This document shows, in pieces, positions 26,323 to 36,762 of a stretch of 44,484 nucleotides of DNA. The notes under the pieces are model-generated. The model made no database searches and was not told where the DNA came from. It worked only from the letters and a program-made list of their open reading frames with translations. Position 1 is the first letter of the stretch, and every line of letters begins with the position of its first letter. Position numbers and translations under genes: made by a program. The DNA lies in assembly GCF_004305975.1 (NCBI RefSeq), contig NZ_BHZI01000009.1, positions 1 through 44,484 on the forward strand. Reading direction: 5' to 3'. Origin of the DNA: Streptomyces otsuchiensis. GTDB lineage: Bacteria > Actinomycetota > Actinomycetes > Streptomycetales > Streptomycetaceae.

Positions 26323-27810
26323 TCAGCGCCTGGGGTAGCCGTCGCCACCCGGCATGTGCAGCCGCAGCACGGCGCGTTCCGCCCATTCCGGCGGTGTCCC
26401 GAGCCGGGAGACGCCGTACATGACCGTGAAGGCCAGCGGTACGGTCCAGGCGGCCGGTTGGGCGAGCAGGACCGTGAGCCAGCCGTGGGGCGCGTCGACC
26501 GCTACCGAGGCGAGCGCCGCTCCGGTGGAGGCGCACACGCCCGCCGCCAGTCCGGCCGCGGCACCCGCGACCGTCAGCCCGCGCCACCAGATGCCGAGGA
26601 CCAGCAGGGGGCAGAAGGTGGAGGCGGCCACCGCGAAGGCCCAGCCGACCAGCACGTTGATGTCCACCGCGGCGGCGGGCAGGGAGAGCAGTACCGCGAC
26701 CAGTGCCCCGGCTGCCACCGCCAGCCGCAGCCGCCGCACGTCCGTCGCCCCGGTCCGGCTGAGGTCGTGCGAGAGCCCGCCGGCCAGCGCCAGCAGCAGC
26801 CCGGAGGAGGTGGAGAGGAACGCGGCGAAGGCCCCGGCCGCCACCAGCGCCGTCAGCACCGCCCCCCAGGTACCGGGCAGCGCCACCGCCGGGAGCACCA
26901 CCGTCACCGTGTCGGTGTCACCCGTGGTCGCCAGTTCGGGGGTGAAGACCCGGCCCAGCAGCCCGTAGACGGCCGGGAAGAGGTAGAAGAGGCCGAGCAG
27001 CACGATCACCCACACCGCCACCCGCCGGGCGGCACGCGCCGACTGGGTGGTGGTGAACCGCATGATCACGTGCGGCAGTCCGGCGGCGCCCAGCGTGGTG
27101 GCGATCAGCACCGACCAGGTGGCCAGCAGCGGCTGCCCCGAGTTGTCCAGGTCCAGCAGCGGCCTGCTCCACGCGGTGAGGTCCACATGAAACGCCTCGG
27201 CCCGCACCTCGCTCCCGGCCGTCGCCAGCAGCACCAGCGCCGGTACGGCGATGAAGACCAGCTTGACCAGGTAGTGGAAACCCTGGACATAGGTGGCCGA
27301 ACGCATCCCGCCGGCCAGGATCGACACCGAGACCACCAGCCCGGCCAGCACCACGCCCACCCAGTACGGGGTGCCGCTGACCAGGTGCAGCACCACGCCG
27401 GCGCCCTTGAACTGCGGTATCAGGTAGAGCCACATGATCACCAGCAGGATCACGGCGCACAGTTTGCGGATGGTCTGCGAGCCGAGCCGGTAGTCCGCGA
27501 AGTCCGGGACGGTGTAGGCACCCGAACGCCGCATCGGTCCGGCGACCAGGGCGGCCACCGCGACATAGCCGGCCGTGAAACCGACCGCGTACCAGAGGGT
27601 GCCGATGCCGTGCTTGAGCATCAGCCCCGCCAGGCCCAGCACCGACGCGGCCGAGACGTACTCGCCCGCGATGGCCAGCGCGTTCCAGCCCGGCTTGATC
27701 TCCCGGGAGGCGACCAGGAAGTCGGGCGTGGACCGGGCCGCCCGGACCCCGTAGACACCGATCAGCATGCTGACGCCGAGCAGCAGGCCGATGGCGAGGA
27801 GGCCGGTCAC
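26323..27810 (-). CDS. Sodium:solute symporter family transporter (locus A)
   Basis: 495 residues, about 13 membrane helices, SSS family of the acetate/monocarboxylate branch. Visible family segments are DFLVASREIKPGWNALAIAGEY near the N-terminus, SAASVLGLAGL, GAYTVPDFADYRLGS, LYLIPQFKGAGVVL, and the helix with TLGAAGLPHVIMRF. ActP and MctC have similar segments, so the substrate is probably a small carboxylate, but that is inference. It overlaps the upstream small membrane protein gene by 4 bases and is the last gene of the kinase-regulator-symporter operon. Confidence 0.88.
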   Translation of the reverse strand: MTGLLAIGLLLGVSMLIGVYGVRAARSTPDFLVASREIKPGWNALAIAGEYVSAASVLGLAGLMLKHGIGTLWYAVGFTAGYVAVAALVAGPMRRSGAYTVPDFADYRLGSQTIRKLCAVILLVIMWLYLIPQFKGAGVVLHLVSGTPYWVGVVLAGLVVSVSILAGGMRSATYVQGFHYLVKLVFIAVPALVLLATAGSEVRAEAFHVDLTAWSRPLLDLDNSGQPLLATWSVLIATTLGAAGLPHVIMRFTTTQSARAARRVAVWVIVLLGLFYLFPAVYGLLGRVFTPELATTGDTDTVTVVLPAVALPGTWGAVLTALVAAGAFAAFLSTSSGLLLALAGGLSHDLSRTGATDVRRLRLAVAAGALVAVLLSLPAAAVDINVLVGWAFAVAASTFCPLLVLGIWWRGLTVAGAAAGLAAGVCASTGAALASVAVDAPHGWLTVLLAQPAAWTVPLAFTVMYGVSRLGTPPEWAERAVLRLHMPGGDGYPRR

Positions 27811-28460
27811 CCGGGACCGTCCCCGGTGGTTGGGCGGTGGCGGGGGCGACCCTGTCGGGGGCGGTCGGTGGCCGCCGGGGCGCGGGCGGCCGACGGCGCG
27901 ACCAGGCGGGCGGGCGCTGCCGTCTCGCCGGGAACGGTCCCGGCGCCTCCGTCAGCGTCCGCGACCGCGACCGCGACCGCGTGGGTGTCTGTATCGGTGT
28001 CGCCGCCGGTTCCCGGATCGGTGTCGGCGTCGCTGCCCCTGGGCCCCGGCCCGGGTGCGTACCGGGGGCGGCCCGGCGGCGGGGGCTGTCCGTCCTCCAG
28101 CCGCTCCGCGGCCCGGACGTGGAGGGCCGCGATCAGCAGCAGCATCGGGTAGGTGGCCGTCATCAGCAGCAGCCAGGAGGCCGGGGCGGGGCCGATGGTG
28201 AGCCGGTCCAGCACCGGCAGCGCCGCCAGCAGCCCGCTGAGTCCGAGCAACAGCCCGCCGAGCAGCCCCAGCGTGCCGAGGGCGAGCCGGCGCTGCCGGG
28301 CGAACGCTGCCCGCGCCGCGTCCAGCGCGGGGCCGTCCATGGACTCGTCCGCGACGGGCAGCAGCTGCTGCACCGGCCGGTGGTGCCGGGAGAGGGCGAT
28401 CCGCGTCTGCGGGCTGGTCACCCGGACCCGGCGGTTCGGCGGGCGCGAGGGCAGGCTCAC
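27807..28460 (-). CDS. Small two-helix membrane protein paired with the symporter
   Basis: 217 residues from GTG at 28460. Two hydrophobic helices lie at about 78-104 and 110-135 (LALGTLGLLGGLLLGLSGLL; ASWLLLMTATYPMLLLIAAL), giving a hairpin topology like DUF485 or DUF4212 proteins that accompany SSS symporters. Residues 1-60 are basic and probably cytoplasmic. Residues 140-217 are low complexity, with Asp/Thr and Ala/Val dipeptide runs, likely disordered. The stop overlaps the symporter start, so translation is coupled. A role as accessory subunit is inferred from E. coli yjcH-actP and Corynebacterium mctBC. Confidence 0.75.
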   Translation of the reverse strand: MSLPSRPPNRRVRVTSPQTRIALSRHHRPVQQLLPVADESMDGPALDAARAAFARQRRLALGTLGLLGGLLLGLSGLLAALPVLDRLTIGPAPASWLLLMTATYPMLLLIAALHVRAAERLEDGQPPPPGRPRYAPGPGPRGSDADTDPGTGGDTDTDTHAVAVAVADADGGAGTVPGETAAPARLVAPSAARAPAATDRPRQGRPRHRPTTGDGPG

Positions 28461-28470
28461 GGCGTGCCCT

Positions 28471-29259
28471 TCATCGCTGCTCGTCCCGGACGGCGGCGAA
28501 CAGCCGCTCCTTGAGCGCGCGGGCGTGCCGGCGGCTGACCGGGACCTCCCCGGCGGGCGTGCAGGCCAGCAGCCCGGCGGAGCTGGTCACCCGCAGGTCG
28601 CGGACCCAGCGGACGGCGACCAGGTAGCCGCGGTGGGCGCGGACGAACCCCGCGTGCCCCCACGCCTCCTCCAGGTAGGAGAGGGAGAGGCGGATCAGGT
28701 GGCTGTCCTCGGCGGTGTGCAGCCGCACGTAGTCGCCGTGCGCCTCCGCGAACTGGATGTCGTCGCGGTGCACGAAGACGGTGTGACGGCCGGTCTCGAT
28801 CTGCACCACCGACATCTCGTCCACCGCCGGCTCCCCGGAGCCCCCCGGGCCGGCCGCGTCCGGCCCGGGTGCGGGCGGGCGGCGCAGTGCCCGGACCCGC
28901 GCGGCGGCCTCCGCCAGCCGCTCCGGGCGGATCGGCTTGAGCAGGTAGTCGGCGGCGCCGATCCCGAACGCCTCGACGGCGTGCCGCTCGGAGGCGGTGA
29001 CGAAGACGATGGCGGGCGGTTCGGACAGCATGTGGAGCACCCGTGCCACCTCCATGCCGTCCAGGCCCGGCATGGAGATGTCCAGGAAGACGGCGTCGAA
29101 GGTCTCGGTGCCCAGCACGCGGACGGCGGCCTCGCCGCTCTCCGCCTGGCTGACGCTGCCGATCTCGGGGAGTTCCGCGAGCATCTCGGCCAGCTCCTGG
29201 CGGGTGAAGGTCTCGTCCTCGACGACGAGGGCCCGCATCGGGCGCGGTATGTCGTTCAC
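28471..29259 (-). CDS. LytTR-family response regulator
   Basis: 262 residues from GTG at 29259. Receiver domain at 8-130: acidic pair Glu14-Asp15, phosphoacceptor Asp60 in VFLDISMPGLDG, switch Thr in FVTAS and Lys in LLKPI. A Gly/Pro linker follows, then a LytTR DNA-binding domain at about 160-255 (VQIETGRHTVFVHRDDIQF, AHGDYVRLHT, SLSYLEEAWGHAGFVRAHRG, VPVSRRHARALKERL). Its GTG overlaps the kinase stop by 4 bases (GTGA), so they form a two-component pair. The only LytTR-type sites seen in the window are upstream of the second symporter operon (36571-36623). Confidence 0.95.
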   Translation of the reverse strand: MNDIPRPMRALVVEDETFTRQELAEMLAELPEIGSVSQAESGEAAVRVLGTETFDAVFLDISMPGLDGMEVARVLHMLSEPPAIVFVTASERHAVEAFGIGAADYLLKPIRPERLAEAAARVRALRRPPAPGPDAAGPGGSGEPAVDEMSVVQIETGRHTVFVHRDDIQFAEAHGDYVRLHTAEDSHLIRLSLSYLEEAWGHAGFVRAHRGYLVAVRWVRDLRVTSSAGLLACTPAGEVPVSRRHARALKERLFAAVRDEQR

Positions 29260-30446
29260 CCCACTGCCCTTCCCGGACTTCCGTGTGCTGACTCCGACTG
29301 AGGCGGTGCCGCCGGCCGTCCGCGCGCGGTGGCACCGGGACCAGCGGGACCACTGGCACGACCGCCACGACCGGGCCCGCCGGCCTGGACACCGCGCATG
29401 AAGCGTGGGACGCGGATGACCACCTTGGTGCCCTGGCCGGGGGCGGTCTCGATGACCAGCCCGTACTCGGGCCCGTAGACCGTGCGCAGCCGCTGGTCGA
29501 CGTTGGCCAGGCCGACGCTGCCGGCGATGTCCTCGGCGGCGGGACGCTGCCACTGGCCGGCGAGGATGTCCCGGGCCAGTTCGGGGTCCATGCCGACGCC
29601 GTCGTCCTCGACGACGATCACGCACAGCGGGCCCTCGCCGAAGCCGGAGACGGTGATGCTGCCCTTGCCGGGGCGGGGCTCCAGCCCGTGGCGCACGGCG
29701 TTCTCGACGATCGGCTGGACGACGAGGAAGGGCACCGAGACCGGCAGGATCTCCGGCGCCATCCGGACGGTGATCTCCATGCGGTCGTCGAACCGGGCGC
29801 GCTGGAGCTCCAGATAGGTCTGGGTGGCCTGGAGTTCGGCGGCGACCGTGGCGTAGTCGCCCTGGCTGGAGAAGCTGTATCGCAGGTAGTCGGCGAAGTC
29901 GTTGAGCAGGGTGCGGGCCCGGTCGGGGTCGGCGCGGATACGGGCGGCGATCACGGCCAGGGCGTTGTGGAGGAAGTGCGGCGATATCTGGGCGCGCAGG
30001 GTGCGCAGCTCGGCCTGGGCGATGCGGGTCCTGGCGCGGCGCAGCGCCGAGTGGTCCAGTGAGCGGGCGACCAGCCGGCCGGCCGCCTCCAGGTCGCGTT
30101 CGTCGGCACCGGTGGCGGCGAGGGCGCCGGTCAGCTCGCCCGCGACCATCAGCGGGACGGCGGTCCAGGCGGCGTGCCGGGCGGTGGCTCCGTGGTCGAA
30201 GGTGCGGGCCAGCAGGGCGGTCAGCTCGCCGGGCCCGGGCGGGGGGCCGGATATCGCCAGCGGGCGTTCGAGGTCGGCGAGGACCAGGGCGTCGGCGCGG
30301 ATCAGCCGGCGGAGCCGCCGGGCGGCGGAGGCGGTGCCGCGTCCGTGCAGCCCGTCCCGGAGCTGCTCCCCTATATCGTGCGCGGCGTCGAGCACCGTGG
30401 CGGTGTCCCCCACGGGCTGAACGCGTCGTCGCATTCGGAGCGGCAT
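29256..30446 (-). CDS. Soluble LytS-type sensor histidine kinase
   Basis: 396 residues with no membrane helix, unlike most LytS relatives, so it should sense an internal signal. Residues about 20-135 look like a GAF-type input domain. The His_kinase segment has LRTLRAQISPHFLHNAL with phosphoacceptor His157. The ATPase domain has the N box QPIVENAVRHGL and G box VEDDGVGMD, then GLANVDQRLRTVYG. Residues 365-396 are a Gly/Pro/Ala tail. ATG at 30446 is preceded by a -10 box only 6 bases away. First gene of kinase-LytTR-small membrane protein-symporter. Confidence 0.92.
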   Translation of the reverse strand: MPLRMRRRVQPVGDTATVLDAAHDIGEQLRDGLHGRGTASAARRLRRLIRADALVLADLERPLAISGPPPGPGELTALLARTFDHGATARHAAWTAVPLMVAGELTGALAATGADERDLEAAGRLVARSLDHSALRRARTRIAQAELRTLRAQISPHFLHNALAVIAARIRADPDRARTLLNDFADYLRYSFSSQGDYATVAAELQATQTYLELQRARFDDRMEITVRMAPEILPVSVPFLVVQPIVENAVRHGLEPRPGKGSITVSGFGEGPLCVIVVEDDGVGMDPELARDILAGQWQRPAAEDIAGSVGLANVDQRLRTVYGPEYGLVIETAPGQGTKVVIRVPRFMRGVQAGGPGRGGRASGPAGPGATARGRPAAPPQSESAHGSPGRAVG

Positions 30447-30655: not shown

Positions 30656-32062
30656 TCAGCCCACGGCGTCGTTGTACTCGTCGATCTTCCGCTGGACGGT
30701 CTCCTTGGCCTTGGTCATCGCGGTCTCGGCGGAGTCGCTGGTGGTGAGGGCGGCCTCCCAGCCCTCCTCCGAGGCCATCCGGGAGTCGGCCATGACGCCC
30801 ATCATGCAGCCGGCGGTGTTGACGTTGGTCTCGGAGTCGGCGAGCTGGGCGGCGGCGACCGCGAACTGCGGGAACTCCGCGGCGCGCTCCTTCGCCTCGG
30901 GGCCGTCGTAGCCGTTGGTGTTGACCGAGAGGTAGCCGGTGCCGGCGTGCCACTTGGACTGCGACTCCGCGGTCATCAGGAACTGCACGAACTCCCAGGA
31001 TCCGCGGATCTGTTCCTGGCTGTGGCCCTCACCGTTGATCCACAGGGAGGCACCGCCGATGATCGAGCCGCCCGGGTCGTCGGCAGAGATCAGCGGGAAG
31101 TAGCCGGCGCCGACCTCGAAGTCGGACTGCTCCAGGAACCCGCCGAGGGAGCCGGTGGACTCCAGCGTCATCGCGGCGCGGCCGGAGGTGAAGGCGGCCT
31201 GGGCGTCGTCGGTGGAGCGGCCGACCTGGACGGCGAGTTCGTCCTCGATCATCGACTGCCACCACTCGACGACCTCGATGATCTCCGGGTCGTCGAAGAG
31301 GACCTCTCCGGCGCGGCCCTCGCGGCCGTTGCCGTTGTCGCAGTAGGGCACGGCGGCGCGGGCCATGAACTGCTCGACGAACCAGCCGTAGACGGCGGCG
31401 CCGAAGCCGTACTGCTGGATCTGGCCGTCGGAGCCCCGGACGGTGAGCTTCTCGGCGAACTCGCGGATCTCGGCGAGGTCCTTCGGCGGCACGTCGGGGT
31501 CGAGGCCGGCCTCCTCGAACGCGTCCCGGTTGACGTACATCAGCGGGGTCGAGTTGTTGAAGGGGAAGGAGCGCAGGTCGCCGTCGACGGTGAAGTAGTT
31601 GAGCAGCGCGTCCTCGAGGTCGCCGGTGTCGTAGTCGTCCTTGTCGATGAACGCCTGCGCGGGGACGGTCTGGCCCGAGTCGATCATGAACTGGGTGCCC
31701 AGGTCGTAGACCATGATCAGGTTGGCGGTGTCGCCCTGCTGGATCGCGGCACGGTGCTGGGCCAGGGTGGTGTCGTAGTCGCCCTGGAAGGTGCCGGTGA
31801 CCTTGACGCGCCCCTCGTTCTCGGCGTTGAACTCGCTGATCAGGCCGTTGAGCACCTGGCCGTTGGTGGAGTCCATGCTGTGCCAGAACTCGACGTCGAC
31901 AGCGCTGTCGAGGTCGTCCAGGACCTCGGCGCCGGGCACGTCGGACGCCGAGGCGCCGCCGCCACCGCCCCCTCCGCCGTCGTCGCTGGAACAGCCGCTG
32001 AGCAGCAGGGCCAGGCCGGCCCCGGCGGCGACCAGCGCGGTGGAGCGTCTGCGTGTCGTCAT
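30656..32062 (-). CDS. ugpB: Ugp-like ABC transporter substrate-binding lipoprotein
   Basis: 468 residues. Signal peptide with lipobox LLLSGC (Cys24), then a Gly/Ser linker and a solute-binding fold. VEFWHSMDSTNGQVLNGLI, TGTFQGDYDTTLAQHRAAI and LIMVYDLGTQFMIDSG align well with E. coli UgpB, the binding protein for sn-glycerol-3-phosphate and glycerophosphodiesters. The mycobacterial homologue prefers glycerophosphocholine, so a phospholipid-derived polyol is the likely ligand. Last gene of permease-permease-binding protein, with a 163-bp gap and hairpin before it. No ATPase gene follows. Confidence 0.88.
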   Translation of the reverse strand: MTTRRRSTALVAAGAGLALLLSGCSSDDGGGGGGGGASASDVPGAEVLDDLDSAVDVEFWHSMDSTNGQVLNGLISEFNAENEGRVKVTGTFQGDYDTTLAQHRAAIQQGDTANLIMVYDLGTQFMIDSGQTVPAQAFIDKDDYDTGDLEDALLNYFTVDGDLRSFPFNNSTPLMYVNRDAFEEAGLDPDVPPKDLAEIREFAEKLTVRGSDGQIQQYGFGAAVYGWFVEQFMARAAVPYCDNGNGREGRAGEVLFDDPEIIEVVEWWQSMIEDELAVQVGRSTDDAQAAFTSGRAAMTLESTGSLGGFLEQSDFEVGAGYFPLISADDPGGSIIGGASLWINGEGHSQEQIRGSWEFVQFLMTAESQSKWHAGTGYLSVNTNGYDGPEAKERAAEFPQFAVAAAQLADSETNVNTAGCMMGVMADSRMASEEGWEAALTTSDSAETAMTKAKETVQRKIDEYNDAVG

Positions 32063-32127
32063 CTGTGGTGTCCGTTCTCGTCGTTGAGCGTCGGCGGGCG
32101 CGGATGCGCGCGCGTCGGTGGTGGTGT

Positions 32128-32147
32128 CCCCGGCTGTACGGCCGGGG
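32128..32147 (-). other. Intercistronic hairpin before the binding protein gene
   Basis: A perfect 7-bp stem CCCCGGC/GCCGGGG with a 6-base loop in the 163-bp gap between the second permease and the binding protein. Such hairpins often shield the binding-protein part of a processed mRNA. Confidence 0.5.
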
Positions 32148-32225
32148 TCGTGCGCCGCCGGGGCGCGGTGAGGGCGTGAACATCGCCGGTCCGGCGGTCG
32201 TCCTCGAACTGGGTTACGGGCGCGA

Positions 32226-33044
32226 CTACTTCACGGCGCCGGCCGTCAGGCCGCGGACGATGAAGCGCTGCCCGAAGATCACCAGGGCGAGGGTGGGGAG
32301 CACCGACAGCGCGGCACCCGCCAGCCAGAGTCCGGGGTTGGCGGACTCGGCGTTCTTGAGGCTGTTCAGCCCGATCTGCAGCGTCTGCATCTCGGTGGTC
32401 CTGGTCATGATCAGCGGCCAGAAGTACATGTTCCAGGAGCTGATGAAGACGTAGACGCCGACGGCACTGAGCGCCGGCTTGTTCAGCGGCAGCAGGATCG
32501 TCCACAGGAACCGCAGGTGTCCCATGCCGTCGACCCGGGCGGCGTCGCGCAGTTCCAGCGGGAACTGCTTGAAGCTCTGCCGCAGCAGGAAGGTGCCGAA
32601 CGCGTACGCCAGGAAGGGCAGTACGAGGCCCAGGTAGCTGTTGTGCATCCCCCACCCGGAGATGGTCAGGTAGTTGGGGATGAAGGTGGCCTCGGCCGGC
32701 ACCATCAGGGTGGAGAGGAAGAGCGCGAAGACCACCGCGCTGCCCCTGAACTTCAGGAAGACGAAGGCGTAGGCCGCCAGTACCGAGGTGGCCAGCTGCG
32801 CGACCGTGATGATCCCGGCCATGACGATCGAGTTGCCGTACATCCGCATCAGCGGTACCGCGTCGAGCACCCGCTGGATGTTGTCCAGGTGGAAACCGGT
32901 GGGTATCAACTGCGGCGGGAAGGTCGAGAGTTCTCGCGGCTCCATGAAGGTGCCCGCGAAGACGTAGTAGACCGGGAAGAGCACCGGGATCAGCGCGAGC
33001 AGCAGCACCGCGTAGATCAGCACCCGTCCGAGCGTGGTCCTCAT
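32226..33044 (-). CDS. ugpE: Ugp-like ABC permease, UgpE/MalG type
   Basis: 272 residues, six membrane helices. The cytoplasmic EAA loop is visible in ELRDAARVDGMGHLRFLWTI followed by LLPLNKPAL. MVPAEATFIPNYLTISGWGMHNSY is typical of the MalG/UgpE group. Its start overlaps the stop of the first permease by 4 bases (ATGA). With the partner permease it would form the channel, powered by an ATPase encoded elsewhere, perhaps a shared MsiK-like one. Confidence 0.9.
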   Translation of the reverse strand: MRTTLGRVLIYAVLLLALIPVLFPVYYVFAGTFMEPRELSTFPPQLIPTGFHLDNIQRVLDAVPLMRMYGNSIVMAGIITVAQLATSVLAAYAFVFLKFRGSAVVFALFLSTLMVPAEATFIPNYLTISGWGMHNSYLGLVLPFLAYAFGTFLLRQSFKQFPLELRDAARVDGMGHLRFLWTILLPLNKPALSAVGVYVFISSWNMYFWPLIMTRTTEMQTLQIGLNSLKNAESANPGLWLAGAALSVLPTLALVIFGQRFIVRGLTAGAVK

Positions 33045-34039
33045 GAGTAGTGCACCTTCCGCTCGATGACGCCGAACTGGACCGCGGTGCAGATCAGCAC
33101 CATCAGCAGCAGGACCAGGGCCTGCGCGCTGGCGCGGCCGAAGTCACTGGTGCCGTAGGCGAAGGCGTTCTCGTAGATGGAGTAGACGAGGGTGGTCGTC
33201 GAGCCGACCGGGCCGCCCTGGGTGAGGATGTGGATCTGCCCGAACCCCTGGAGGGCGTTGATGGTCGAGATCACGATGAGGAAGAAGAGCTGCGGGCCGA
33301 GCAGCGGGATCGTGATGTACCAGGCGCGACGCGGGCCGGCGGCGCCGTCGAGCAGCGCGGCCTCGTTCACCTCCTTGGGTATGGAGCCGACGCCGGCGGC
33401 GAGGATCAGCACCCCGTAGCCCAGGTTCATCCAGACCGTGGTGAGGCAGATCGAGATCAGCGCCATCTCGGTCGAGGTCAGCCAGGCGACCTGGCCGAGG
33501 CCGAGTTGGTAGAGCAGCCCGTTGAGCACTCCGCTTGCCGGGTTGTAGAACACGGCGAAGATGACGGACGCGGAGGCGACGGAGAACGCGAACGGCAGCA
33601 CGAAGGCGCTGCGGAAGAAGCGCTGCGCGCGGATCTGCGACTCCAGCAAGAGCACCACCGCGAGGGCGCCGATCGCACCGGGCACGACCACACCGAGCGT
33701 GAAGAGCGCGGTGACGAGGAGGATCTTGCCGAACTCGCCGGTGAACATCTCCTCGAAGTGGCTCAGGCCGACGAACCGGGACGGGCGCCCGATGATGTCG
33801 TTGCCGTGCATCGACAGGTAGACGGTGCGGCCGAGCGGATAGAGGAGGAAGAGCAGGAAGACGACGATGGAGGGGGCGAGGAAGCCCCACGCGAGCATGG
33901 TTTCCCGGCGGGGACCCGTGGCGCGGCTGGCGCTCGGGATCTGCCGGCGGGCAGCGGTCGTGGCCGTGGAGGCGGGGGCGGCGTCGCCGTCCGCCCGGTC
34001 ACTGGCCTGGGTTGTTGGTGTGGGCACGGTCGGCAGCAT
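33041..34039 (-). CDS. ugpA: Ugp-like ABC permease, UgpA/MalF type
   Basis: 332 residues from ATG at 34039. Residues 1-45 are a Thr/Ala-rich cytoplasmic tail, then six helices. FLAPSIVVFLLFLLYPLGRTVYLS is the typical first helix, and the EAA loop is in EVNEAALLDGAAGPRRAWYI. TQGGPVGSTTTLVYSIYENAF is the usual UgpA-like C-terminal signature. The ribosome site CTGAGG lies 5 bases before the ATG and is inside an inverted repeat that may hide it. First gene of the ABC operon. Confidence 0.9.
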   Translation of the reverse strand: MLPTVPTPTTQASDRADGDAAPASTATTAARRQIPSASRATGPRRETMLAWGFLAPSIVVFLLFLLYPLGRTVYLSMHGNDIIGRPSRFVGLSHFEEMFTGEFGKILLVTALFTLGVVVPGAIGALAVVLLLESQIRAQRFFRSAFVLPFAFSVASASVIFAVFYNPASGVLNGLLYQLGLGQVAWLTSTEMALISICLTTVWMNLGYGVLILAAGVGSIPKEVNEAALLDGAAGPRRAWYITIPLLGPQLFFLIVISTINALQGFGQIHILTQGGPVGSTTTLVYSIYENAFAYGTSDFGRASAQALVLLLMVLICTAVQFGVIERKVHYS

Positions 34040-34044
34040 GTACA

Positions 34045-34073
34045 CCTCAGGTGAAGCCGTCAATCCCCTGAGG
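34045..34073 (-). promoter_or_regulatory. Inverted repeat over the ugpA ribosome binding site
   Basis: CCTCAGG (34067-34073) and CCTGAGG (34045-34051) on the minus strand, 15 bases apart; the second arm contains the ugpA Shine-Dalgarno bases. As RNA it could block initiation; as DNA it could be an operator. Confidence 0.45.
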
Positions 34074-34299
34074 AGAATCGAACGCCAACAGTGTTCACCC
34101 AGCCGGTGTCGCGGCTGACGCCGCTCGCACGGACGGTGGCGCAGGACACGTCGTCGCGGGCCACGGCGACAGTGGTCCGACCACCCGCGGGCGGAGAACG
34201 GGCTTGTGGCACCAGGCGGTTGGGCAACGGGCGGTCGAACACCGCCGGTGCGGCCCGGTTGTCGCCGTTCACCGGGAGCACGTTCGGCAGCGCCCCCAC
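34060..34299 (-). CDS. Possible 79-residue protein or gene remnant
   Basis: A GTG at 34299 opens a frame ending at 34060, 20 bases before ugpA. Third positions are mostly G or C in the first half, and the residue mix (VNGDNRAAPAVFDRPLPNRL; TVAVARDDVSCATVRASGV) is not the usual Arg/Pro noise of antisense frames. No domain, signal or good ribosome site was recognised. It could be a remnant of a longer gene, or chance; if it is not real, this 290-bp gap holds only the inverted repeat and the symporter terminator. Confidence 0.28.
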   Translation of the reverse strand: MGALPNVLPVNGDNRAAPAVFDRPLPNRLVPQARSPPAGGRTTVAVARDDVSCATVRASGVSRDTGWVNTVGVRFSSGD

Positions 34300-34331
34300 G
34301 GCCGCTCACCCGGACAGGCCGCCCAACCGGA

Positions 34332-34368: not shown

Positions 34369-36069
34369 TCAGTGCTTGCTGGCTCCCTCCGCACCGGCGC
34401 CGGTGAGGGCGCGGACCTGGAGCTCGGCGAACCTCACGGCGTCGTTCTCCCGCGAGGTCAGCGTGCCGATGACCGCGCAGAGCACACCGATGGGCACCGA
34501 CACCAGGGCGGGGTTCTCCAGCGGGAACCAGGCGAAATCGATGTTCTCGGGGAACAGCGACAGGCTGTTTCCGTCGGCGTCGGTCTTGCCCGACACCACC
34601 GGCGAGAAGAAGACCAGTCCCACCGCGGCGATCAGACCGCCGTAGATGCCGGCCAGCGCGCCGTTCGTGTTGAACCGCTTCCAGAACAGGCTGAGCAGGA
34701 TCGTCGGAAGGTTCGCGGAAGCCGCGATGGCGAATGCCAGCGCCACCAGGAACGCCACGTTGAGGTTCTGGGCGAAGACCGCCAGCACGATCGCGATCGT
34801 CCCGACGCCGAACGCCGCGAACTTCGCCACCCGGATCTCGTCGCGCTCGCTGGCCTGTCCCTTGCGCAGCACGTTGTTGTAGAAGTCGTGCGCCAGTGAC
34901 GAGGAGGAGGCGATCGTGAGGCCCGCGACCGTCGACAGGATCGCGGCGAACGCGACCGCGGCGATCAGGGCCAGCATCACAGCGGCGAGGAAGTCACCGC
35001 CGAAGTGGGCCCCGACCTGCTCGGCGAGCTGTGGCGCGGCGGTGTTGCCCGCGGCGTTCTGCTCGACGATCGCGTCCCGGCCCACCATGGCGGCGGCACC
35101 GAAGCCCAGCACCAGGGTCATCAGATAGAAGGTGCCGATCAGGCCGATTCCCCAGTTCACCGACTTCCGCGCGGTCTTGGCGTCGGGCACGGTGTAGAAG
35201 CGGATCAGGATGTGCGGCAGGCCCGCGGTGCCGAGCACCAGCGCCAGCCCGAGACTGATCAGGTCCAGCTTGTTGATCATGGTCTGCCACGCGTCGCCGA
35301 CGACTTCTCTGCCGTAGACCTGGCCGGGTTCGAGGAACGCCGCTCCCGCCCCGCTCGCGTCGGCCGCGTCGTTCATGAGCGCCGCGAGGTCGAACTTGTA
35401 GACCGCCAGCACCATGATGGTCAGCAGGGCTGCGCCGCCCATCAGCATGCCGGCCTTGATGATCTGTACCCAGGTGGTGCCCGTCATCCCGCCGAAGGTG
35501 ACGTAGACGATCATCAGGATGCCGACCACGACGATGCCCGCGATCTTCGCGGTGTCGGCGCTCATCCCCAGATAGGTCTCGCCGGGCTGGATTCCGAGGA
35601 GCAGTGCGATCAGCGCGCCGGCACCGACCATCTGCGCGAGCAGATAGAAGATCGACACGGTGAGCGTGGAGACCGACGCCGCCGTCCGCACCGGGCGTTG
35701 CCGCATGCGGTACGAGAGCACGTCCGCCATGGTGTAGCGGCCGGAGTTGCGAAGTAGCTCGGCGACGAGCAGCAGCGCCACCAGCCAGGCGACGAGGAAG
35801 CCGATCGAGTAGAGGAAACCGTCGTAGCCGAAGAGCGCGATCGTGCCGGCGATGCCGAGGAAGGACGCCGCGGACATGTAGTCACTGCCGATGGCGAAGC
35901 CGTTCTGCACCCCGGAGAAGCCTCGGCCACCGGAATGGAAGTCGCTGGCGGAGTTGACCCGCCGGCTGGCCCACACCGTGATCAGCAGGGTCACCGCGAT
36001 CATCACGGTGAAGAGGATGACGGTGATCAGGCGGCTCTCCGCGGAGACGCCCTGCGCGAGTACGTTCAT
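34369..36069 (-). CDS. actP: ActP-type cation/monocarboxylate symporter (locus B)
   Basis: 566 residues, 13 to 14 membrane helices, SSS family. Close to E. coli ActP in the order of its segments: SDFHSGGRGFSGVQNGFAIG, SDYMSAASFLGIAGTIALF, GYDGFLYSIGFLVAW, LRNSGRYTMADVLSYR, YLLAQMVGAGALIALLLGI and GGMTGTTWVQIIKAGMLMGG. Likely substrates are acetate, propionate or pyruvate, as for ActP and MctC. Its ATG overlaps the stop of the DUF485 gene by 4 bases. Upstream of that pair stand a promoter and LytTR-type repeats. Confidence 0.92.
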   Translation of the reverse strand: MNVLAQGVSAESRLITVILFTVMIAVTLLITVWASRRVNSASDFHSGGRGFSGVQNGFAIGSDYMSAASFLGIAGTIALFGYDGFLYSIGFLVAWLVALLLVAELLRNSGRYTMADVLSYRMRQRPVRTAASVSTLTVSIFYLLAQMVGAGALIALLLGIQPGETYLGMSADTAKIAGIVVVGILMIVYVTFGGMTGTTWVQIIKAGMLMGGAALLTIMVLAVYKFDLAALMNDAADASGAGAAFLEPGQVYGREVVGDAWQTMINKLDLISLGLALVLGTAGLPHILIRFYTVPDAKTARKSVNWGIGLIGTFYLMTLVLGFGAAAMVGRDAIVEQNAAGNTAAPQLAEQVGAHFGGDFLAAVMLALIAAVAFAAILSTVAGLTIASSSSLAHDFYNNVLRKGQASERDEIRVAKFAAFGVGTIAIVLAVFAQNLNVAFLVALAFAIAASANLPTILLSLFWKRFNTNGALAGIYGGLIAAVGLVFFSPVVSGKTDADGNSLSLFPENIDFAWFPLENPALVSVPIGVLCAVIGTLTSRENDAVRFAELQVRALTGAGAEGASKH

Positions 36070-36434
36070 CGGTCACGCCCTCCGTTCTCCAGTTCCTCGC
36101 GGAGCTCGTCCGCCAGCGGGTCGAACCGGCGGTTGGCGAAGCGGGAGTAGGCGATGGCGATACCGAAGGTCGAGACGAACTGGAGCAGTCCGAAGACCAG
36201 CGCCAGGTTGAAGTTGCCCACCAGCTGGGTGGACATGACGCCGCGGGCGTAGGCGGACATCACCACGTAGAGGAGGTACCAGGCGAGGAACGCGATCGTC
36301 ATGGGGACCACGAAGCGCAGCAGTCGGCTCCGCAGCTCCAGGAACCGGGGGTCCTCGTGCATGGCCACCGAGCGGGTCCTGAGATCGTCTTCCGGTGGCT
36401 CGCTGGCCTCCGTTGTCGCTGGCTGGGTCGTCAT
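36066..36434 (-). CDS. DUF485 family membrane protein
   Basis: 122 residues with two helices at about 42-62 and 75-97 (VVPMTIAFLAWYLLYVVMSA; NFNLALVFGLLQFVSTFGIA). The segment LRSRLLRFVVPMT-AF and the C-terminal YSRFANRRFDPLADELREEL are typical of DUF485 partners (YjcH, MctB) that sit next to acetate symporters. CAGGAG lies before the ATG. First gene of the operon with actP. Function is not firmly known; an accessory subunit of the symporter is the usual assumption. Confidence 0.92.
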   Translation of the reverse strand: MTTQPATTEASEPPEDDLRTRSVAMHEDPRFLELRSRLLRFVVPMTIAFLAWYLLYVVMSAYARGVMSTQLVGNFNLALVFGLLQFVSTFGIAIAYSRFANRRFDPLADELREELENGGRDR

Positions 36435-36500: not shown

Positions 36501-36530
36501 AATGTAAGGAACGTCACTCGCACATGGCAG
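36501..36530 (-). promoter_or_regulatory. DUF485-actP promoter
   Basis: -10 TACATT (36501-36506), 18-bp spacer, -35 CTGCCA (36525-36530). The -35 is imperfect, as expected for an activated promoter. A perfect palindrome TTCGCGCGAA (36493-36502) sits at the predicted start of transcription and may be an operator. Confidence 0.5.
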
Positions 36531-36567
36531 TGGGCCTACCTGCCGAGTCGCTGAAAGCGGAGTACCC

Positions 36568-36623
36568 GCGCCGAACGGTCACCCGGTGTGCGACGAACGG
36601 TCTACGAACGGGCGACGAACGGT
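36568..36623 (-). promoter_or_regulatory. LytTR-type binding-site array upstream of DUF485-actP
   Basis: On the minus strand ACCGTTCGT occurs at 36615-36623 and 36593-36601 and ACCGTTCGG at 36571-36579: three 9-mers at exact 22-bp steps (9 + 13). CCCGTTCGT at 36604-36612 lies between the first two at 11 bp. The first three fit the published LytTR consensus [TA][AC][CA]GTTN[AG][TG] at every position, and ACCGTTCGTC is the core of Pseudomonas AlgR sites. The array starts about 40 bp upstream of the -35 box. The rest of the gap up to 36715 shows nothing else. Confidence 0.65.
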
Positions 36624-36715: not shown

Positions 36716-36762
36716 GACAGGGCCCGGTCCCACCGCACGAAGCGGTGGGGCCGGGCCCTGTC
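36716..36762 (-). terminator. Terminator of the str operon after tuf
   Basis: A 21-bp stem (arms 36716-36736 and 36742-36762, one G-U type pair) with loop ACGAA. The longest hairpin in the window. Confidence 0.88.

Follow-up and report, generated by a model that had tools for sequence, protein, structure and literature searches.

A probable LytTR operator array upstream of the monocarboxylate symporter gene mctC in Streptomyces otsuchiensis, with counterparts before other transporter genes

The window analysed here, a 44,484-nt stretch of Streptomyces otsuchiensis DNA, carries upstream of the DUF485-mctC genes an array of direct repeats that is very probably the docking place of a neighbouring two-component regulator. 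We assign a probability of roughly 0.83 to the more specific reading that the array serves as operator for the LytTR regulator whose gene lies 8 kb away, this regulator being a BtsS/BtsR-like activator of DUF485-MctC with cstA as a second target. In the proposed circuit, the kinase would phosphorylate the LytTR regulator, and the phosphorylated protein would bind RCCGYTCRNCG half-sites that lie on one helix face, 20-22 bp apart, with extra half-sites one turn (11 bp) off. The bound regulator would activate a promoter with a poor -35 and a -10 at a fixed distance from the sites, the output being the DUF485-MctC monocarboxylate symporter and, in this genome, cstA as the second target. Operation would be like that of E. 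coli BtsS/BtsR, where sensing of pyruvate turns pyruvate uptake on. The sites, their conservation and geometry, their link to the regulator and the families of the target genes can be read from the sequence; from these we infer that the regulator binds the array, that it activates and does not repress, and that it responds to pyruvate or to a monocarboxylate close to it.

On the minus strand, the window runs from fusA and tuf through an inverted repeat and the array to DUF485 (36066..36434), mctC (34369..36069) and three UgpA/E/B-type ABC-transporter genes, and continues with a histidine kinase gene (29256..30446), the regulator gene (28471..29259), a small gene (27807..28460), a second SSF symporter gene, SSFb (26323..27810), and then the S10 ribosomal operon. 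The inverted repeat (36716..36762, 21-nt arms), located between tuf and the array, is a probable tuf terminator. The first-pass annotation had correctly positioned the regulator, the second symporter and the DUF485-symporter pair; the name actP that it gave to the latter symporter is better replaced by MctC, as the product matches the monocarboxylic acid symporter equivalog NF058657 with 824.1 bits, above the cut-off of 670. SSFb is 29.7% identical to MctC and keeps the SAAS and FLSTS motifs of what we take to be TM1 and TM8, respectively, whereas the small protein encoded between the regulator and SSFb has hydrophobic stretches and no Pfam match. The regulator consists of a receiver and a LytTR domain; its best NCBIfam model is BtsR (NF008677; 136.4 bits, below the cut-off of 246), and in direct comparison it is 31% identical to E. 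coli BtsR. A PF04397 profile search of the 6.15-Mb genome yielded one LytTR domain, at 28501-28782 of the window. The product of 28471-29259, as the only LytTR protein found in the genome, would be the one to bind the array, provided that the array is an operator of the LytTR type. The UgpB/E/A-like genes (30656-34309) separate mctC from the kinase gene; elsewhere, matches to UgpA/UgpB occur at only one (L006) of the 80 loci described below.

The array lies on the minus strand, the same as DUF485-mctC, a point left unstated in the first-pass annotation. Half-site 1, ACCGTTCGT (36615..36623), half-site 2, CCCGTTCGT (36604..36612), interleaved at 11 bp, half-site 3, again ACCGTTCGT (36593..36601), and half-site 4, ACCGTTCGG (36571..36579), stand 117, 106, 95 and 73 nt, respectively, before the -10-like TACATT of the putative mctC promoter (36501..36506, minus strand), with start-to-start spacings of 11, 11 and 22. 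The earlier description of three 9-mers at exact 22-bp spacing with a fourth interleaved at 11 bp thus holds. A fifth, degenerate site, CGCTTTCAGCG (36549..36559, minus strand), lies 20 bp further downstream of the intact array and 53 nt before TACATT; it was recognised from relatives, as it aligns with the intact ACCGTTCG[GT]CG sites of L097-L099.

The bare 9-mer count alone is unremarkable: ACCGTTCGK occurs exactly three times in the window versus 1.03 expected, and 11 of 100 shuffles reach three, an ordinary figure that would suit a repeat arisen by chance in GC-rich intergenic DNA. The striking part is the spacing. At a lag of 22, the three copies are identical in 9/9 columns, and when the 370-bp region upstream was dinucleotide-shuffled 4000 times, 8/9 at lags 20-23 was never reached; given, furthermore, that the repeat is conserved at 61 of 64 related loci, which refutes a chance origin, we rejected that explanation, to which we attach a negligible probability. 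Across the whole genome, RCCGYTCRNCG-N8..11-RCCGYTCRNCG has two matches, both within the array, and none in the control. By contrast, the looser 8-mer pair RCCGYTCR-N12..14-RCCGYTCR is commoner in the control (18 matches) than in the genome (six, two of them in the array), so that only the longer 11-mer pair is specific. The pair MCCGTTCG-N3..14-MCCGTTCG has nine matches in this genome, six of which fall outside the array, at spacings of 12, 13, 18, 18, 18 and 21. One study defines a LytTR-regulated operator as a pair of repeats, direct or inverse, each 9-11 nt long and separated by 11-13 nt (PMC4847170); the window array, with steps of 22 and 22 plus 11, and the 20-22 bp pairs at the 61 of 64 loci correspond to this arrangement.

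Conservation was assessed at 80 loci around relatives of the regulator, taken from 483 confirmed relatives among the matches listed. SSFb occurs at 77 of these loci, the kinase gene at 75 and DUF485 at 53; the other 27 have no DUF485 match in the sequence examined, partly owing to contig ends, several contigs ending early. Streptomyces genomes were divided into the window's clade (group A1), a second group with the cluster beside mctC (A2), genomes with a remote regulator (B; 20) and genomes without the regulator (C; 18). A motif-free lag scan of the 400 bp upstream of DUF485 peaked at 21 bp (34/53 loci; z 4.4), and the same scan upstream of SSFb, the regulator, the kinase and MctC in the 80-locus set gave no such peak. 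In Nocardia the repeats read ACCGTTCGTCGC-N9-ACCGCTCACCGC; Saccharopolyspora and Actinoplanes have related versions, and Streptomyces has the version seen in the window. For counting, we used a same-strand pair of RCCGYTCRNCG, 20-22 bp apart, with at most two mismatches, a consensus drawn up after inspection of these very loci, whereas the lag scan is independent of it.

Where the regulator cluster is nearby, this pair precedes DUF485 at 61 of 64 loci, comprising 8/8 in A1, 3/3 in A2, and 5/5 Streptomyces and 45/48 other actinobacteria of the 80-locus set. In groups B and C, which have one to seven DUF485 matches per genome and for which the best copy alone was examined, the pair is absent (0/20 and 0/18; 0/38 together), and control upstream regions contain it in 3/309 cases. 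None of the 18 group C genomes has a LytTR domain. The association of the pair with a nearby cluster has a Fisher p of 7e-25, a value that ignores kinship between loci; since the loci are related, the p-values given here overstate independence. Among the 53 loci of the 80-locus set, 50 pairs are in forward and none in reverse orientation relative to the gene. The three non-Streptomyces loci without a pair at up to two mismatches are L048, L051 and L059, the first of which has a perfect 12-nt repeat of different sequence at 21 bp. We also considered whether the promoter of the regulator gene has a regulatory array of its own and rejected this, because regions upstream of the regulator, kinase, SSFb and MctC genes contain pairs (at most two mismatches) at the background level (3/309). 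A lag-21 signal upstream of SSFb in 7/20 group B loci was likewise discarded, as it lies within coding sequence and has no common site.

We searched 50 genomes with the paired 11-mer. The background was about one match per genome, similar to the control in many of them, and one genome (G124) has a low-complexity run with 16 reverse matches and 17 in the control; because of this background, matches were counted only when a conserved gene stood behind them. A near-identical match recurs in 10 of the 20 group B genomes, where an MFS gene follows it after about 90 nt. The product of this gene scores 314.9 bits against the SfMCT L-lactate transporter model, just under the cut-off of 320, also matches the oxalate/formate family (OFA type hereafter), and shares 24.7% identity with YhjX of E. 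coli (E 8e-32). The site is present at 11 of the 15 OFA genes of group B (10 exact, one with one mismatch) versus none of eight copies in seven LytTR-less genomes (p 0.0013); it is missing at the other four, and five of the 20 genomes lack the gene. A stricter OFA-type pattern was found in 47/199 genomes and in 0/199 controls. Cross-tabulated by hand, it occurs in 46/159 LytTR-bearing genomes, called by a regulator match with an E of 2e-41 or better (151 genomes) or by a LytTR domain check (the other eight), versus 1/40 LytTR-less ones (p 1e-4). The single exception, G079, is 78% complete, and nearly complete LytTR-less genomes score 0/37 (p 2e-5). No OFA-type site at up to one mismatch was found in 113 of the 159 LytTR-bearing genomes. 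Twenty of 37 further sites were fetched; 19 of them stand 87-99 nt ahead of the start of the same MFS gene, the exception being the site in G059. In total, 29 of the 30 OFA-type sites examined precede an OFA-type MFS gene. Matches in A1 relatives at L178 and L179 stand before unrelated genes and were taken as chance. In G136 (C1:5530449-5530481), three half-sites 11 bp apart read ACCGCTCGACG ACCGTTCAACG ACCGCTCAACG, and the OFA gene of that genome lacks the site; the triple half-site may possibly mark another target.

Control of DUF485-mctC by the regulator at 28471-29259, as proposed in the first-pass annotation, is supported by these comparisons, with the pair found at 61 of 64 nearby-cluster loci and in none of the 18 LytTR-less genomes, and we regard the link between array and regulator as well supported. 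The comparison asked for in the first-pass annotation, whether the array occurs only where the regulator is present, comes out in favour of the proposal for relatives that have both nearby. Absence of the array from relatives having both the regulator and the symporter had been named as counting against the proposal, and it is formally seen in the 20 genomes of group B (0/20), in which the regulator is remote; there, however, the regulator is a 43-47% identical relative in another cluster. Given that the same site stands before another transporter gene in 11 of the 15 group B genomes having that gene, the circuit appears to have been re-targeted there, not to have vanished.

Of the 34 genomes with a match, 28 were examined in the search for cstA sites, the other six belonging to group B. 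Two relatives (G135 and G113) have an exact pair upstream of cstA (NF011590), and a third, G089, has a 2-mismatch pair. The cstA of S. otsuchiensis itself (contig C46, 12516-14738) is preceded by ACCGTTCGTCG, ACCGCCGGGCG (two mismatches) and two copies of ACCGCTCGGCG, at steps of 20, 20 and 11, the last ACCGCTCGGCG being 73 nt ahead of TAGATT. Its 2-mismatch pair is backed by the 22-mer tandem ACCGCTCGGCG-ACCGCTCGGCG, which, at zero mismatches, occurs once in the genome outside the array, namely here. Overall, four of eight window-clade genomes with cstA carry such sites, two of them (this genome and G089) as 2-mismatch pairs only; no pair at up to two mismatches was found before cstA in the other four clade genomes, three A2, 8 of 14 B and 9/9 C genomes examined. 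Thus, as in BtsS/BtsR, a BtsR-type operator sequence stands upstream of a CstA-family gene.

Promoter geometry was counted from the most promoter-proximal pair of the 61 mctC loci to TAnnnT words in the next 100 nt. Of the 59 such -10-like words, 57 begin at a distance of 51-54 or 73-75 nt from the proximal site, two classes that are one repeat unit apart. Within the window, site 4, which is intact, stands at 73 nt and the decayed CGCTTTCAGCG at 53 nt, where L097-L099 have intact sites; because of this decay, the window array lacks its most proximal member. OFA sites have TAnnnT at 53-55 nt in 14/19 and at 63-64 nt in 5/19 cases, again a helical step, and those seen earlier have it at 54-55 nt in 11/11. 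The window promoter has no good -35, and sites lie upstream of the -10, never over it. Sites upstream of the -10 and in helical phase are the usual layout for activation.

That a LytTR system can control the uptake of pyruvate is known from work on E. coli. In the open-licence PubMed Central papers searched, we found no description of such a circuit in actinobacteria, of its kinase or of its switching of targets. The picture of a BtsR-like site before three transporter families goes further than the first-pass annotation. Upstream of E. coli K-12 btsT, GCCGCTCA, ACCGCTTA and ACCACTCA follow each other at steps of 20 and 21 bp. Compared with BtsS/BtsR, the regulator is a LytTR protein of 31% identity, and the half-sites, RCC[GA]CT[CT]A at btsT and RCCGYTCR here, form direct repeats on the strand of the gene at 20/21 bp. 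The CstA family, to which btsT belongs, supplies a target in this genome and three relatives, the L177 protein being 49.6% identical to BtsT. Unlike in E. coli, the system here mainly targets the gene of an SSF symporter (mctC) or of an OFA MFS transporter, the kinase corresponds to the GAF-to-ATPase half only, without the membrane receptor, and the operon includes a second symporter. AlgR is presumably more distant than E. coli BtsR/btsT from both the regulator and the site. E. coli YpdA/YpdB (PyrS/PyrR)-yhjX is also a LytTR system with two direct repeats and an MFS target, YhjX; however, the YpdB site given in PMC4847170, GGCATTTCAT, differs from the site found here. The YehT/BtsR site seen upstream of btsT is also given there as an oligonucleotide. 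In Sinorhizobium fredii, the RpuS/RpuR two-component system with its symporter-type sensor turns on the pyruvate symporter gene mctP via a direct repeat (PMC9100948). RpuS/RpuR, CrbS/CrbR and CbrA resemble the present system as two-component systems with a symporter-type sensor part, but theirs are STAC-fused symporter-kinases with a LuxR-type regulator, whereas here the genes are separate and the regulator is of the LytTR type. A review table lists S. coelicolor SCO1220 (LytTR) as an orphan regulator and SCO1217 as an orphan kinase (PMC9739842). From the group B order regulator-small gene-SSF-kinase (20/20 loci) and the locus numbers, the two are a probable pair flanking an SSF gene; unlike the window regulator, SCO1220 is remote from mctC, and its probable target is an OFA MFS gene.

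The kinase departs from the LytS-type membrane receptor kinase suggested at first. Starting at the ATG at 30446, it is 396 aa long, with Pfam matches to His_kinase and HATPase_c only and no membrane segment found. It aligns with BtsS residues 209-556 (26.6% identity), the membrane part of BtsS not being covered, and a GAF-like region is suggested by this similarity to BtsS. The 5TMR-LYT membrane domain, described as characteristic of all LytS-type kinases (PMC10653868), has no Pfam match in the kinase, and the membrane segments seen in its family do not look like such a receptor. The idea that the whole family is cytosolic was nevertheless rejected: 80 of 99 kinases have a single N-terminal hydrophobic anchor about 190 aa before the H-box, whereas the window's clade has none, and in three others the segment lies further upstream, in ORF extensions that may be non-coding. 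The kinase alignment excludes 9 of 33 rows (stops in the matched stretch or fewer than 250 aa). Since the kinase lacks a LytS-type membrane receptor, the signal might enter via its cytosolic GAF-like region or via SSFb, which is the most speculative part of the scheme.

Three other explanations accept the array as a binding site and differ in what binds, with which effect or in response to what. The LytTR regulator might bind as a repressor, or the array might serve as a sink; the several additional sites outside the core pair might allow looping or oligomerisation, and E. coli annotation terms BtsR a dual regulator. This is improbable in view of the -10 distances (51-54/73-75 nt for mctC, 53-55/63-64 nt for OFA genes), the helical phase and the lack of a good -35 in the window. 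That a transcription factor of another type binds the repeats, and its gene merely travels with the cluster, appears more improbable still: Nocardia promoters do have a conserved GTGA-N-CCACA beside the sites (22/53 loci), but direct repeats at 20-22 bp with a BtsR-type half-site suit LytTR proteins, and the OFA-type site is missing in 37/37 nearly complete LytTR-less genomes. A signal other than pyruvate, such as acetate, propionate, lactate or an internal metabolite, deserves much more weight, although we hold it to be the lesser prospect. MctC-type proteins carry several monocarboxylates, and the transporters concerned share such broad substrates; moreover, the model that comes nearest to the OFA protein is that of an L-lactate transporter (314.9 bits, cut-off 320), and the membrane pocket in which BtsS binds pyruvate (PMC10653868) is missing from the kinase. 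Pyruvate, on the other hand, is indicated by the BtsR-like site and by the CstA-type targets of four genomes. The LytTR activator reading is in line with all targets falling in three families that include pyruvate/lactate transporters.

The absence of a 5TMR-LYT-like receptor from the kinase, the near-constant presence of SSFb beside the regulator (77 of the 80 loci drawn from 483 relatives among the matches listed, and 20/20 in group B) and the SSF motifs kept by SSFb lead us to the tentative suggestion of a split transceptor. SSFb might read external pyruvate or a related monocarboxylate and signal to the membrane-less or single-anchor kinase, and the BtsR-type operator would connect this input to the lineage's own transporter, be it MctC, OFA MFS or CstA. 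The one-chain layout of SLC5/STAC kinases is not what we see, the symporter and the kinase being separate genes, and such a system, if true, would be the unfused counterpart of the CbrA/CrbS/RpuS kinases, with a BtsR-type regulatory site of ancient origin that is retained across phyla although different transporter genes follow it. If the activator reading is right, it would provide a function for a regulator family present in about four-fifths of the sampled Streptomyces genomes (159/199, hand count), and for regulators of Nocardia, Saccharopolyspora, Actinoplanes and others, along with a small regulon predicted from sequence. It would also mean that an operator nearly alike in E. coli and actinobacteria has switched among three unrelated transporter families, and would offer a sharp test of how a LytS-like kinase senses without a membrane receptor.

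Several mctC promoters contain additional elements. In group C (L106-L123), 13 of 18 have a palindrome GTGA-N6-TCAC, often GTGATCCGGATCAC, just after a -10-like TACGAT, compared with 3/20 in group B and 0/11 in groups A1 and A2, and control there seems to have passed to a different regulator, perhaps a repressor. At the Nocardia loci (L021-L078), a conserved GNGTGA-N6..9-CCACA, which we take to be CRP/GlxR-like, lies between the operator and the -10 (22/53 loci). Upstream of DUF485 in L101, L102, L098, L099 and L010, the -10 contains TTAC (CTCCTTACATT and relatives), and in most window-clade promoters GTGAC occurs a few nucleotides upstream of the TTAC-containing -10.
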